NCBI RefSeq assembly: GCF_000427965.1
Contig: NZ_ATZA01000007.1
Span: forward strand, 62,001-126,000
Direction: 5' to 3'
DNA: 64,000 nucleotides
Origin: Olivibacter sitiensis DSM 17696
GTDB taxonomy: Bacteria; Bacteroidota; Bacteroidia; Sphingobacteriales; Sphingobacteriaceae
A program made the translations under genes and the position numbers. Below the pieces are notes generated by a model, which was given only the letters and a program-made list of their open reading frames with translations, was not told where the DNA came from and did no database searches. Below, in pieces: positions 47,215 to 53,340 of the stretch (position 1 is its first letter; every line of letters begins with the position of its first letter).

Positions 47215-50200
47215 TTATTCTTCAATCCTTACCATAATCCCTTCGGAGTGACTGCTCAATTCCGGCGCATACATGTTTTGCAAAGTAGTGATACCATTGG
47301 AGAACGTACCGGCATTATTGGCTCTCAACTCATATTCGAAAACATATACGCCTTTTGGCATATAATCGATAAAGAAGTTGGTGGCCGCGTCTCGCGTACT
47401 TTCATAATAGCCCAAGCCATCTTGCCATTTATAGGACGAAAGCACGTTGATAGGCTCGAATCCACTTGCCCGCATATCCTTTATGTGGACAAACTCCATG
47501 GTCCTATCGGCCTGTATTTCCAGACGCACCACTACCCTATCCCCTATCTTGATGGGAGACGCTTCCGTAATAGCCTGCAGCTCGTGGCCTTTGTTCGTAT
47601 TTTTCTTCACGAAGAGCCTCTTACGCAACACCACGCCTGTTTCTGCGAACTTTATGGCGTTCAAGTCTTCCAAATATTGCCAGTAAAGTGCGCCCCACAT
47701 GACACCTGGCGAACTTTTCTTCACCTCCACTTTACCCATGCCGGGTGTTATCTCGGTTTTACCCCACGAGCGCTTCACATAACCGCTTCCTGCCTGTTGG
47801 TCTTTCATTTGATTGTCGATAGATTCATCTCCTACCTTAACGTCTACTCCATCGGCCGCTGCCACCCAATCTTTGCCAGCAAACAACAGCGCGTACACGG
47901 CCTCCGTCGTCGCCTTGGTGCTGTTCCATCTATTGCTCTGCCTGTTTTTGAGCAGCCACACTTTCATGCTTTCTACGCTGGGTTCATCTTTTAGAACGAC
48001 ATGAAAAGCCTCTATCAAGATGGCCTGTGTTTCTACAGGCGCTTGGTGCCAGTTCCATCCGCTTTGGTTCTCTTTCCAGTACATGCCCATCTCGTCGCTT
48101 TGCACTGCATGGTCTTCAACGGATTTCAGCAATTGGCTCGCTGCGCTACCTTTCCCAAAACGATGGAAAACCAAGGCCAACATGGCTTTGGTCTGTAAGG
48201 GATATTCCATCATCTCCTTTTCCAGTACCTGCATGACGGAATCGACCTGCTTTTTCAATATAGTGGAAAATGGATATTTCTCCGTAAAATAGGTCCTGGC
48301 ATAGAGATATTGTACCCATTCTGACGATAGCATTTCCGGCTTGTTGGTTTTGGGGTTGATATCCTGAAGGGTCTTTTTATCCAAATAGCTTATGGCCTTC
48401 CCAACAACATCATCCATATCGGCCGTATATAGCTGCATTTGTTGCAAATGCCCAAAACCGGCAAGAATATGCGTGGTGATGGTTCTACTTTCCCTACCTC
48501 CATCAAACCAGGCAAAACCTCCCGAAACCATTTGCCTTGCCTTCAATTTTTGATAAGCCGTCTCTTGTTCGTTGCGCATGGTATTGAGGTCGAACAAGAG
48601 GACCATACGCTTCATTTGTTCGCTTTCGCTCTCGGCTTGGCGTACCCAGGGCGTTTCCTCCAGTAAAAGAGATTTCAGTTCGCTATTGCTTTCCAGTTTG
48701 GATTTCAGCTCTCCTTTCTTTCCCCACTCATCAAATACGGCCTTGATCCTGGGCGAGGAATTGACCAAATGTTGCGAGATCCTATTGCCATACCATCTGC
48801 CAAAAAGCTGCTCGGAACACTCATAAGGGAACTCCCTGAGATAAGGTAAGGAGAACAAGGCATACCATATTGGATTGGTGGTCATTTCCAAGGTCAGTTT
48901 TACCTGCTCCAAGCTTTGCGACTTGTTGTTGCTTAGGTTTTCCATCACGAAGGTCTTTTCCTGTCCTTCACGAGCAAATAGGGGCATGGTCTCGGTCACC
49001 AGCATGCGATTGGTGAGCACGGGCAGGATAGATTCTTCTCCGTCGCTGAAGCTACCCGAGCTGGCCACTACGCGATAGGTCACTGCCTGAACATCGCTTG
49101 GCACCTGCATTGTCCAAGATACGCTGGCACTTGCACCTTTTGGGGCAGAAAAATCCCTGGTGTTTTGCAGGTTTCCGAATACCTTGTCGAGCGGTTGCAT
49201 GGTGAAGGCATCAAAGAGCAAAAGTTGGGCTTTTCCAACCTGTACCGTATCCGACATATTCACTACCTTGGCCTGTACGTGCAATTGATCGCCCTGCCGA
49301 ATGAATCGCGGCATATTCGGTACGACCATCAGGTCCTTTGACGTGCGCACCGTTTTTTCAAAGTAGCCCGTTTTCAAGTCTTGGGTATGTGCAAGGGCCA
49401 TGAATTTCCACTGTGTGAGGCTTTCGGGCGTAGTAAACCGGATTTTGACATTGCCTGCCGAATCCGTTTTCAGGTGCGGAAAGAAGAAGGCTGTTTCGTT
49501 GAGGTCTTTCCTTGGGACGATGCCCTCCAATTGGGTCGCTTGTTTGGCTCCAAGTTTGGTGGTGACAATCACTACGCCTTGCGCCGCACGAGCGCCATAG
49601 AGCGCGGTGGCTTCGGCATCTTTGAGCACTTCCATACGCTCGATATCTTCAGGACTTATAGCGCTCATGTCCTCCACTACCTTCCCATCAACCACGTAGA
49701 GTGGCGTATTGCTATCGGCTATCGAGCTATTGCCCCTAACTGTAACGCCGGCAACAGCGCCAGCCAACATAGTTCTCTTTTGTTGTGTACCGTATCCGGT
49801 TACTACTACTTCATTGAGGCTATTGGTTGTGTCAAAATCAAACGGTTGCTGTAGCCCACCATTTTTTTCCAACTTCATATTAGCAACATATTGATTTTGC
49901 AACCATGTATTCGTCAAAGAGAATCCGAATCGATTGAGTTCGTCAAATTGCCATTGCGGAAAATAATAATTGTAGTTGCCATACCCCACGTGCTGCAAAC
50001 TTTGAATCCCAAAAGACTGAGATATATTCCAGTCGCCTAAATGACTATAACCTACTCGTTCATTTAACTCAAAATAAAGCCCATGTGGCTTAAATTGATC
50101 CAGGGAGCTATCATACATCGTGGCCAACATCTCTGCCAATACGAAATCCCTATCCGGTCCCTTTACCGTGAGTTCCCAGTTTTCTTCCTGTCCCGGGGTC

Positions 50201-53200
50201 AGTTTATCCCGAAGTGTGGCCACTTCGATGGAAAGGTCCCGCGATTTCGGCTGCACATAGATCATCGCTTTTCCTTGTTCGACACTGTTATACTTACCCG
50301 TGAAATAATGGATATAGATATTTCCTTGATAATGTTCCCTAATGGGAAATGTCAGTGCTTCCAGCCCGTCCTTTAAGTACAACAGTTGGCTATGTATGGT
50401 CTTGCCTTCGTATTCCACCTCGGCAATCACCGTCAGCGATTTGTCCGCCGTACCAAACCATATCCTAGCCACTTCACCCGTACGGTACACATCCTTTTCA
50501 GGATAGAGGGCAAATAGCTTGTTGTCTGCCACTTTGCTGCTAGCTGTGCGATATAATTCTAGCTGTTTCTCCACCTTCAAGGTGTCGTCACCATCCAATA
50601 CATAGCCTGTCAGCAAATAGAGTCCCTCTTGCCAATCCGAAGTTACTTGCATGTCTATCCTTGTGGAGTGCTTGGTGTCAAAGTCCGTATCAAAAACCAC
50701 TTCCCCTCTTTGCCAATGCTGCATGTTTTGTTCATCGGCATAGGCATCATGGGGGAAGTACTCTTCAAATTGCTTTCTGTCGTACAAGCTGTAATTGGTC
50801 TTTTGGAAATCGTTCCTGCGCAATATACGATTGGGTGCGGCTAGCTTCACCAAGTTGATCTTGCCCTGGCCGGCAACGAATGCGCCGTTCAAATTTTCCG
50901 TCTTAATAAGTACGGAATCCAGGGCGTGCATATCTACCTTGTCGGGCAGCAGCACCGATAAGGTCAACGACTTATCCCCCACCCTGACTAGCTGTTGCCC
51001 GGTGCGGGTCTCGCCGCTTATATCGGTCACATCCGCCTCGATCTGATAGCTGTAGGTACGAAAAACGCCATCTTGTCTCTCAGTGGCCGCCTTGGCCACA
51101 AACCGGATCTCGAAGTTACCTTCGCCATCTGTCGTGGTTTCACCTTGTACGATCTCTTCCCTTACTGACGAAATAGGCCTTCTGCTCCATCCCCAATAAG
51201 GTTGGATATCTTGCCGGTACACCCGATAACTAACCTTGGCTCCATCAATTTGTGCACCCGAAAATGCCTGTGCCTCCCCTTTCACCGCTATCTCCTGCTC
51301 CAACCGATAATTGCCCTTAAGGGTATCAAATGTCACCTCAAATTTGGGCCTTTTGTATTCTTCCACACTGAAATGACATTGGTAATCACCACTTTCGTCT
51401 TCCAGGTAATAATCTCCCGTCAGGCCATTTGCCGGCAACACGAAACTACCGGAGAAAGAACCAAACTCATTGCTTTTCAGATCCAGTTCACCAATGGATT
51501 TATCATTGGGATCATATAGTTCCACACTGGTTTCCACGTTCTTGGCCACCTTGCGTTCGTTCTTCCTTTCTCGATACATGATGCCCTTAAAATAGACCGT
51601 TTGTCCGGGTCTATATATAGCTCTATCCGTAAATAAATGGATTTTTGGATCTTCTTCTTCCTCGTCATCACTGTCTTCTTGCCGATAATTGTAGAAGTAC
51701 GCATCAAAAAAAACGTCCTCATCTTTGATCTTATAGACCAATTGCCTGGTAGTATAACGATCGAGATTCTCCTTTACCCTGGCCCTGCCTAATTTATCGG
51801 TCCGTACCGTTTGACTGAGAACCAAATCCTTGTTATTCCCTGCTCGTTTATACACTTCCAGGGTTTTCCCTGCCAGAGGAGCCCCATTGTCCCTGTCGGT
51901 CAATTGCACTTCATCGTCGCGCCATGCCAAAGCATAGCTTGTCACGGCAAAGCTTTGATAGTAGCCATTGGCCAACTGCTTTACGTCTGGCTGAAACTTA
52001 AAATCGGGATTGTCGGCCACGAGCACCACGTATGTTCCAAGCTCCAATGGATTGAACTTGACCATAGTAGCGTGCTTTTGATAGTCATCGAAGGTTCTCA
52101 GATCTATGGAAAACGTGTCAACGATCGGCAAAGTCGCTATAAGCGAATCAAACTGTGAACTATTGCCAGACATACGCCAAGCAGATAATTTATCTTCATA
52201 ATAGCCTTTGGCATCACGTTTATAATTCAGGATTTTCACATAGATCTTGTCCGTGTTTTTGTGCGACAGGTACACGGGAATAGGAGCATTGGGCAGCACA
52301 AAATGCTCTATTTGTATCTCCAGGGTGGGCGCAAGGATAGCAGCTTGGAGTGCTTTCATGCTTTCATTGGCTGGTGTGGCAGGGTATTTTTCTTTTACCT
52401 GCTCGGCAATCTGGAGTACACTATCCAAATACCGCTTCTTTTCCGAAAAAGTATCTTCATCGGCGGCATTAGCCTTTGATTGATAGGCCAATGCCAACGC
52501 ATGAAGTACCTCCGAAGTGTACCAGGTCCCGGGATCGCTATTGCTCAATGATTTTAGACCATCTATGTATACCTGACTTGCTTTGTCGTCGTACCTCAGC
52601 TTTAAGCGATTCAACTCATTATATAGTAGCGCATTCCGGTTGGACACTGCTGCATGGGCTTGAATAAGCTGATCGTACAGCTCTTCGGCCCGCTCTTTTT
52701 TTGTAACTTGATAATAACGGATTGCTCGATGTGCCAATAGGTCAAAAAGACTGGGCCTTAATTCCCGGTAGGTGCTTGCCGTATCCAATATCTTTTCCCA
52801 AGCAGCCACTTGTTCATGCTGCAAACTGGTCTTGGGAGTGAGGGATTGAATATATAATGTTGCTATCGTATCGGTAAATGAAGCTTTTGGCCATGTTCTG
52901 AAATCGGACGAAAGGCTGTCTCGTACGTTTGTCCGCTGATCTATACTATAGCGGTTGTTTTGGTAATATTCATCCAATAGGGTCGCCAATAAGGATCTTA
53001 ATATGGCCTTTGCCACAGGTCTGGCCTTTGCGATCTCTTGCCCGAAATCATTGACTACATGCAATAGCACGTCCTTGTCATCTTCGGTGATTACTGCTAT
53101 TTTGGAACGATATAGCAAGGCTCGAATGAGTTGCTGGTCTTCCTTTTCCTTTTTGGCTTGCAGGTATATGCTATCCACCAGAGGAACTACCGATTTCAAA

Positions 53201-53340
53201 AGCCCCTCGAATTCCATTTTTTCTATGTGATGCCAAGCCGTATCGTATTCAAGCCTGTCCTGCGCAAAAGCACTGTTTGCAAAGCAGTGCATCAGGCAAC
53301 AAACCAGCAGCCATTGAAAAAAAGCGAAAGAAAATCTCAT
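47215..53340 (-). CDS. Alpha-2-macroglobulin family protein with internal TonB-type plug domain
   Basis: About 2041 residues, exported (signal peptide ends AFAQ). In order: a helical N-terminal region (about 20-340), macroglobulin domains including MG2 (FTDRAIYRPGQTVYFKGIMY, about 565), a SusC-type plug (about 1174-1262: NEVVVTGYGTQQKR, PLYVVDGKVVED, IERMEVLKDAEATALYG), the A2M domain (FTTPESLTQWKFMALAHT), a thioester-type motif CSEQ (Cys near 1508) and an alpha-toroid, then C-terminal MG domains. Such proteins trap proteases. The plug has no barrel of its own and sits where bait regions usually lie. The ATG at 53340 has AGGA before it; 53364 and 53376 are alternatives. Confidence 0.9.
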   Translation of the reverse strand: MRFSFAFFQWLLVCCLMHCFANSAFAQDRLEYDTAWHHIEKMEFEGLLKSVVPLVDSIYLQAKKEKEDQQLIRALLYRSKIAVITEDDKDVLLHVVNDFGQEIAKARPVAKAILRSLLATLLDEYYQNNRYSIDQRTNVRDSLSSDFRTWPKASFTDTIATLYIQSLTPKTSLQHEQVAAWEKILDTASTYRELRPSLFDLLAHRAIRYYQVTKKERAEELYDQLIQAHAAVSNRNALLYNELNRLKLRYDDKASQVYIDGLKSLSNSDPGTWYTSEVLHALALAYQSKANAADEDTFSEKKRYLDSVLQIAEQVKEKYPATPANESMKALQAAILAPTLEIQIEHFVLPNAPIPVYLSHKNTDKIYVKILNYKRDAKGYYEDKLSAWRMSGNSSQFDSLIATLPIVDTFSIDLRTFDDYQKHATMVKFNPLELGTYVVLVADNPDFKFQPDVKQLANGYYQSFAVTSYALAWRDDEVQLTDRDNGAPLAGKTLEVYKRAGNNKDLVLSQTVRTDKLGRARVKENLDRYTTRQLVYKIKDEDVFFDAYFYNYRQEDSDDEEEEDPKIHLFTDRAIYRPGQTVYFKGIMYRERKNERKVAKNVETSVELYDPNDKSIGELDLKSNEFGSFSGSFVLPANGLTGDYYLEDESGDYQCHFSVEEYKRPKFEVTFDTLKGNYRLEQEIAVKGEAQAFSGAQIDGAKVSYRVYRQDIQPYWGWSRRPISSVREEIVQGETTTDGEGNFEIRFVAKAATERQDGVFRTYSYQIEADVTDISGETRTGQQLVRVGDKSLTLSVLLPDKVDMHALDSVLIKTENLNGAFVAGQGKINLVKLAAPNRILRRNDFQKTNYSLYDRKQFEEYFPHDAYADEQNMQHWQRGEVVFDTDFDTKHSTRIDMQVTSDWQEGLYLLTGYVLDGDDTLKVEKQLELYRTASSKVADNKLFALYPEKDVYRTGEVARIWFGTADKSLTVIAEVEYEGKTIHSQLLYLKDGLEALTFPIREHYQGNIYIHYFTGKYNSVEQGKAMIYVQPKSRDLSIEVATLRDKLTPGQEENWELTVKGPDRDFVLAEMLATMYDSSLDQFKPHGLYFELNERVGYSHLGDWNISQSFGIQSLQHVGYGNYNYYFPQWQFDELNRFGFSLTNTWLQNQYVANMKLEKNGGLQQPFDFDTTNSLNEVVVTGYGTQQKRTMLAGAVAGVTVRGNSSIADSNTPLYVVDGKVVEDMSAISPEDIERMEVLKDAEATALYGARAAQGVVIVTTKLGAKQATQLEGIVPRKDLNETAFFFPHLKTDSAGNVKIRFTTPESLTQWKFMALAHTQDLKTGYFEKTVRTSKDLMVVPNMPRFIRQGDQLHVQAKVVNMSDTVQVGKAQLLLFDAFTMQPLDKVFGNLQNTRDFSAPKGASASVSWTMQVPSDVQAVTYRVVASSGSFSDGEESILPVLTNRMLVTETMPLFAREGQEKTFVMENLSNNKSQSLEQVKLTLEMTTNPIWYALFSLPYLREFPYECSEQLFGRWYGNRISQHLVNSSPRIKAVFDEWGKKGELKSKLESNSELKSLLLEETPWVRQAESESEQMKRMVLLFDLNTMRNEQETAYQKLKARQMVSGGFAWFDGGRESRTITTHILAGFGHLQQMQLYTADMDDVVGKAISYLDKKTLQDINPKTNKPEMLSSEWVQYLYARTYFTEKYPFSTILKKQVDSVMQVLEKEMMEYPLQTKAMLALVFHRFGKGSAASQLLKSVEDHAVQSDEMGMYWKENQSGWNWHQAPVETQAILIEAFHVVLKDEPSVESMKVWLLKNRQSNRWNSTKATTEAVYALLFAGKDWVAAADGVDVKVGDESIDNQMKDQQAGSGYVKRSWGKTEITPGMGKVEVKKSSPGVMWGALYWQYLEDLNAIKFAETGVVLRKRLFVKKNTNKGHELQAITEASPIKIGDRVVVRLEIQADRTMEFVHIKDMRASGFEPINVLSSYKWQDGLGYYESTRDAATNFFIDYMPKGVYVFEYELRANNAGTFSNGITTLQNMYAPELSSHSEGIMVRIEE

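Follow-up and report, generated by a model that had tools for sequence, protein, structure and literature searches.

Why does a bacterial alpha-2-macroglobulin (A2M) carry a piece of a SusC-type, TonB-dependent receptor, and what might that piece do there? The window, by which we mean the whole 64,000-nucleotide stretch of Olivibacter sitiensis DSM 17696 that was analysed, encodes a type I-like A2M whose reading frame runs to 2053 aa in full, or 2041 aa when counted from the methionine of the signal peptide (Table 1). The original prediction held that this protein contains a complete SusC-type plug signature with no barrel behind it, located where bait regions usually sit, and that the plug could dock to TonB, plug a pore or act as bait. 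MG2, A2M and bMG10 domains above their cut-offs, a CxEQ motif, and a bait region ahead of the alpha'NT strand within an MG domain place the protein among the type I A2Ms, and its Pfam domains follow the order MG2, A2M_BRD, Plug, A2M and bMG10. A lipobox-like motif was found in none of the 119 full-length relatives, and the window A2M is expected to be soluble in the periplasm.

Table 1. Features of the A2M gene, with residues of the 2053-aa frame and positions in the window.
Feature	Residues	Window positions	Strand	Basis
Type I-like bacterial A2M, 2053 aa		47215..53376	-	ORF
Predicted cleavable signal peptide (cut between ..NSAFA and QDR), without lipobox	13-38	53263..53340	-	Sequence reading
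MG2 domain	578-660	51397..51645	-	Pfam PF01835, E=1.4e-19
A2M_BRD	958-1070	50167..50505	-	Pfam PF07703, 25.3 bits vs cut-off 22.7
Entire bait-site insert, from ..YDSSLDQF to RKDLNETAFFFP	1096-1288	49513..50091	-	150-relative alignment and structural mapping
Linker ahead of TonB box	1131-1187	49816..49986	-	AlphaFold2 pLDDT <50 across ~1121-1220
TonB box and next aromatic, NEVVVTGY	1188-1195	49792..49815	-	Profile match p103-130
LAGAVAGV and VRGNSS segments, equivalents of SusC GRVAGV and IRG	1204-1218	49723..49767	-	
Plug core PLYVVDG...VVIVTTK, beta-alpha-beta	1225-1274	49555..49704	-	Pfam, pLDDT 84-90, fold matches
alpha'NT strand RKDLNETAFFFP	1289-1300	49477..49512	-	R, E, F columns invariant in 150 relatives
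A2M domain	1295-1378	49243..49494	-	Pfam PF00207, E=2.3e-21
Thioester motif CSEQ	1520-1523	48808..48819	-	Sequence; CxEQ in 139/150 relatives
bMG10 domain	1914-2039	47260..47637	-	Pfam PF17973, E=1.6e-35

The domain search that had been proposed found both PF07715 (Plug) and PF00207 (A2M) above their cut-offs, with Plug at residues 1205-1268 (39.1 bits against a cut-off of 23.9), and the NCBIfam SusC_RagA signature TIGR04057 was likewise detected (58.5 against 46.2 bits). A SusC profile matched the plug core with E = 2e-34, which rules out a chance resemblance. The SusC-type TonB box and plug together span residues 1188-1284, with PLYVVDG at 1225-1231, and the coordinates given in the original prediction are correct, the TonB box lying at 1188-1195 and the core ending with TTK at 1274. 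It was also right that no barrel follows, as the Pfam scan of the full protein found no barrel domain, but the plug is not complete: about 33 SusC profile positions (131-163) are deleted after the TonB box and ahead of the IRG strand, leaving a compacted plug. The full-length SusC model TIGR04056 stayed below its cut-off (110.2 against 368.25 bits, mainly from positions 135-213 of 981). Since the window protein lacks both a barrel and a full-length SusC match, we regard it as receptor-derived only and not as a receptor. Its own genome holds ~70 SusC-like loci. Short plug ORFs of this genome were considered as possible further fusions and rejected, as those read appear to be broken SusC genes; several SusC genes (own genome, L189, L318-L321) are apparently split into shorter frames.

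Structure prediction covered residues 890-1400 with AlphaFold2. The MG strands on either side of the insert were well modelled, residues ~1121-1220 had pLDDT values below 50, TonB box included, and a folded core was modelled at ~1222-1284. NEVVVTGY, the candidate TonB-client sequence, therefore lies in an exposed, low-confidence stretch that is modelled as disordered. When modelled alone, the plug core reached pLDDT values of 84-90, which rules out a purely disordered insert as far as the core is concerned, and its nearest solved structures were TonB-dependent transporter plugs, with modest scores (Z 4.9 and below). The core was missing from the structure matches of the long model, a list that the MG domains fill. 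The flanks of the insert superpose on residues 757-1062 of E. coli A2M (Z 15.2), which places the insert over the bait region, the limits of the E. coli bait being taken from PMC4498604. Immediately after the insert comes the alpha'NT strand, a segment that runs through a channel in A2M relatives and withdraws once the bait has been cut (PMC9352918). Together, the model and the superposition make it very probable that residues 1096-1288 occupy the A2M bait region, which bears out the earlier placement and refines it to the bait position itself. The TonB box resembles the experimentally mutated VDEVVV / DEVVVTG (PMC7782687); in Bt1763, the experimental TonB box is DEVVVTG (PMC7782687), followed by Y89 (PMC7618045).

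We surveyed A2Ms of the same subfamily, gathered from genomes and named species, and excised 150 distinct baits, the sampled loci being the best-scoring ones rather than a random draw. Against a SusC profile built from 40 full-length SusC proteins, all of the O. sitiensis genome, 81 of the 150 baits matched at E up to 0.01, compared to 0.1 expected from shuffled baits, which rules out a restriction to a single genome, and 67 had no clear SusC match. Every match fell within SusC positions 20-248 of 1006, which correspond to the CarboxypepD_reg extension, the TonB box and the plug. On the other hand, no bait matched barrel positions, although the profile detects 85-91% of barrel fragments taken from other genomes at lengths of 80-150 aa, and 41% at 40 aa. 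The Pfam scan of the same baits found CarbopepD_reg_2 in 40, CarboxypepD_reg in 37 and Plug in 32, in line with the expectation that similar fusions with a conserved order exist in other Bacteroidota. All four A2Ms recovered from the window's own genus contain the plug, which rules out an assembly join, and their plugs are closest to one another, which points to vertical inheritance within the genus. When the inserts were deleted from 120 full-length A2Ms as a control, only two SusC matches were left (L158 and L159). In these two proteins, the plug core lies in a different MG-domain loop (residues 886-937 and 843-902, respectively), while the TonB box and IRG pieces stay in the bait.

Sorted by content, 14 baits hold the full module, 22 the extension together with a TonB box and 21 a plug that lacks the extension, and others have short pieces. 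Among the 150 unselected baits, the TonB box window was found in 79, IRG in 58, GRVAGV in 53 and the last core window in 37, so that the core windows are rarer than the TonB box although they carry more information. We also considered the 90 baits in which both the extension and a long core are missing. Of these, 37-40 contained short matches to the TonB box, 25 GRVAGV and 13 IRG, compared to 0.9 by chance, whereas short core pieces, which remain visible in a subset preselected for having no long core match, numbered 0-5 and barrel windows averaged chance level. The order of these pieces was reversed relative to SusC, with GRVAGV preceding the TonB box in 9 of 9 cases and IRG preceding it in 8 of 10, and the reordered arrangement was consistent across unrelated genera. 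The pieces that are kept lie at the TonB box and directly after it. The plug of BtuB has a half that is mechanically weak, made up of the 50 residues that follow the TonB box (PMC11658791), and we infer that the kept pieces may parallel this half. A further recurrent motif, about I(K/A)GDP(D/S)A..(V/M)(D/E)EP, was seen in the inserts of L048, L173, L012 and L160.

The bait site has seen repeated gain, loss and replacement of receptor pieces. On an A2M backbone tree (FastTree, with some long branches), the minimum number of changes was 19 for the plug, 25 for any SusC match and 31 for the TonB box. Two Winogradskyella A2Ms (L087 and L077), with a backbone dN of 0.03-0.04, differ in their baits, one being a plug and the other a TonB box piece. 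In a Maribacter pair (L141/L130), dN and dS both rise in the bait alone, which indicates replacement rather than fast point mutation. In L087, the clearest case of replacement, the plug shares 61% protein identity with the closest SusC of its own genome and 41% with the A2M plug of a congener; at the DNA level, L087 and that SusC gene have just short matches, and no recent copy from a donor gene was found. Where modules are kept, six close pairs gave dN/dS values of 0.12-0.24 and one (L101/L102) gave 0.68, with 0.30-0.54 in other pairs that are more divergent or hold different or shorter pieces. These ratios suggest that retained modules are mostly under purifying selection.

Whether the module arose once was examined on an improved module tree, the first quick one having been of poor quality. 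The AU test retained a single-clade origin (p 0.24 when only the main family is included, 0.18 once the second subfamily is added), and the module sequences may reflect one ancient capture with many losses and some renewals. Since the module tree does not separate single from multiple origin, the case for repeated capture rests on the backbone tree, the sister pairs, the reordered motifs, other receptor types and a second subfamily. The last is a distant Bacteroidota A2M subfamily taken from the control set (L346-L349), with a full module at the equivalent site in 4/4 members. As for other receptor types, one bait (L178, genome G328) is a compressed plug of that genome's own Oar-like receptors, and another (L177, genome G387) fuses a repeat-protein piece with a receptor plug piece. 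This combination, with the piece YPNPQIAxGAVKxNRIYDSxVTTQ of a large repeat protein, occurs in the L177 insert, L382 and L384, so that a bait and a VWA protein from the same genome share it. No conserved gene neighbourhood was found among the few loci examined. Altogether, the trigger of this trap is recurrently rebuilt from the N-termini of TonB-dependent receptors, often as reordered short pieces, which goes beyond the original prediction.

Also beyond that prediction, VWA/YfbK proteins share the cassette. A SusC-like N-terminus was present in 24 of the 30 VWA/YfbK proteins of Bacteroidota that we sampled (L322:2644-4737 from Winogradskyella, and L385-L414); about 16 of these 24 matches extend to the TonB box and only four to the plug core. 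The copy in the O. sitiensis genome (L408, G000:C35:30013-31416) has a worn TonB box besides the extension and LAGRVNGVMIRGRS. Protease baits are thus not the only place where the cassette occurs; we know of no bait in VWA/YfbK proteins. Two other proteins outside the A2Ms bear similar segments. A segment of a BlaR1-type M56 peptidase of Winogradskyella pelagia (L325:938-3022) resembles the plug core (E=0.005 with PF07715, E=7e-11 with the SusC model), and a 241-aa protein of Maribacter flavus (L078:11451-12176), encoded next to the A2M gene and followed by a transglutaminase-like gene, combines an apparent membrane segment with CarboxypepD_reg and a TonB-box-like end, GDVVVGGAY.

The module of the window protein is SusC-derived and sits at the bait site; its core is modelled as folded and its TonB box stretch as disordered. 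We hypothesize, with a rough probability of 0.4, that the insert serves as the functional bait of a thioester trap in the periplasm and is built from the N-terminal, periplasm-facing part of TonB-dependent receptors of the same cell. From A2M biology, a protease would cut the flexible bait stretch, the alpha'NT strand would withdraw from its channel, and the newly exposed thioester would capture the protease; by this analogy, the insert probably acts as a cleavable bait. Less certainly, the receptor pieces may mimic the TonB-loosened TonB boxes and plugs that proteases meet on the periplasmic side of the outer membrane, in which case the trap would fire on whatever attacks the receptors. We propose such mimicry only tentatively as the reason for the receptor pieces. 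It accounts for the site, the source, the turnover and the constraint, and it leaves the VWA proteins unexplained. Counting against it are the cassette in 24 of 30 VWA/YfbK proteins, the non-receptor piece in L177, the 67 of 150 baits without a match and the dN/dS of 0.68 in L101/L102.

These same observations fit a different explanation, in which insertions are simply tolerated in the bait and come most often from the multi-copy receptor genes, barrel pieces are purged because they would do harm, and the receptor identity has no function. A permissive site of this kind would explain why baits range from an intact module to the unrecognisable and why VWA proteins hold the same pieces, with ~70 SusC-like loci in the O. 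sitiensis genome at hand as donors; the chimeric L177 bait and the relaxed L101/L102 pair also point this way. While the chimera, the decay and the VWA proteins can be explained in this way, the constraint in the six close module pairs, the excess of the TonB box over the core (79 against 37 of 150, despite the greater information in the core windows) and the reordered arrangement common to unrelated genera cannot, and the full modules in 4/4 members of the second subfamily likewise argue against it. We consider a purely permissive site rather doubtful. The TonB box excess is what would be expected if the soluble trap is anchored to TonB-ExbBD, where receptors open, by an exposed TonB box, either alone or together with the CarboxypepD_reg extension, and TonB pulling might in addition help to load or spring the trap. 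The TonB box is the most widespread element, matches a sequence that was mutated experimentally and sits in a stretch modelled as disordered; a link between the extension and TonB has been proposed (PMC7782687), and the VWA/YfbK proteins, where about 16 of the 24 matches reach the TonB box, are accounted for as well. However, a TonB box can be recognised in only about half of the baits, it changes at least 31 times on the backbone tree, and the GRVAGV and IRG pieces have no known TonB binding. Docking leaves this frequent loss and the other pieces unexplained, and we hold it to be somewhat more doubtful than a permissive site.

A third possibility is that the core, as a pore plug or an adaptor, binds the barrel of a receptor, a second plug or the machinery of outer membrane assembly. 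The folded core does resemble transporter plugs, but it is missing in most relatives, the plug is partly deleted in the window protein, and nothing in our data points to a barrel partner, which makes such an interaction highly improbable. For the same reasons, together with the modelled disorder of the TonB box stretch, the earlier suggestion of pore plugging finds no support. Mimicry is thus the reading that we narrowly favour over a permissive site and TonB docking. An extended form of it seems unlikely: Bacteroidota would have an evolving, self-mimicking trap, refreshed with the cell's own TonB box and plug pieces and firing at proteases that attack the receptors' inner face, and TonB may tether or mechanically load it, which would link protease capture to the proton-motive force.

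If the triggers are made from receptors, one could read the probable site of attack, or else the docking partner, from the sequence alone, and the bait differences between sister species would be ready-made variants. Such a trap would join protease trapping with TonB-linked transport, and the receptor N-terminus would be reused as a mobile cassette across unrelated periplasmic proteins. As far as we found, a receptor-derived macroglobulin bait is undescribed: full-text searches of open-access papers found no account of an A2M with plug, SusC or TonB, although automated domain listings may contain the architecture.

With the A2Ms of E. coli and Salmonella (YfhM/ECAM; PDB 4ziq, 4rtd, 4u48), the window A2M shares the MG domains, the bait position and the CxEQ thioester, and the trap fold around the insert is alike (Z about 15). 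However, the bait of ECAM, which is a lipoprotein, is largely disordered, whereas the window A2M is predicted to be soluble, with a bait that is receptor-derived and partly folded. With the SusC/RagA transporters (RagA, 6sli; BT1763, 6z9a), it has in common the TonB box, the plug sequence and the core fold, and it differs from them in having no barrel, in its expected soluble periplasmic state and in its compacted plug. The VWA/YfbK proteins of Bacteroidota carry the same kind of CarboxypepD_reg and TonB box, and sometimes the plug, on a non-receptor protein, but there the cassette is N-terminal, while in the window A2M it lies in the protease bait. A folded domain at this site has a precedent in complement C3, C4 and C5, where the anaphylatoxin (ANA) domain fills the equivalent position before the alpha'NT strand (PMC9352918); ANA is helical and released as a signal, whereas the plug of the window A2M is of unrelated, receptor origin.
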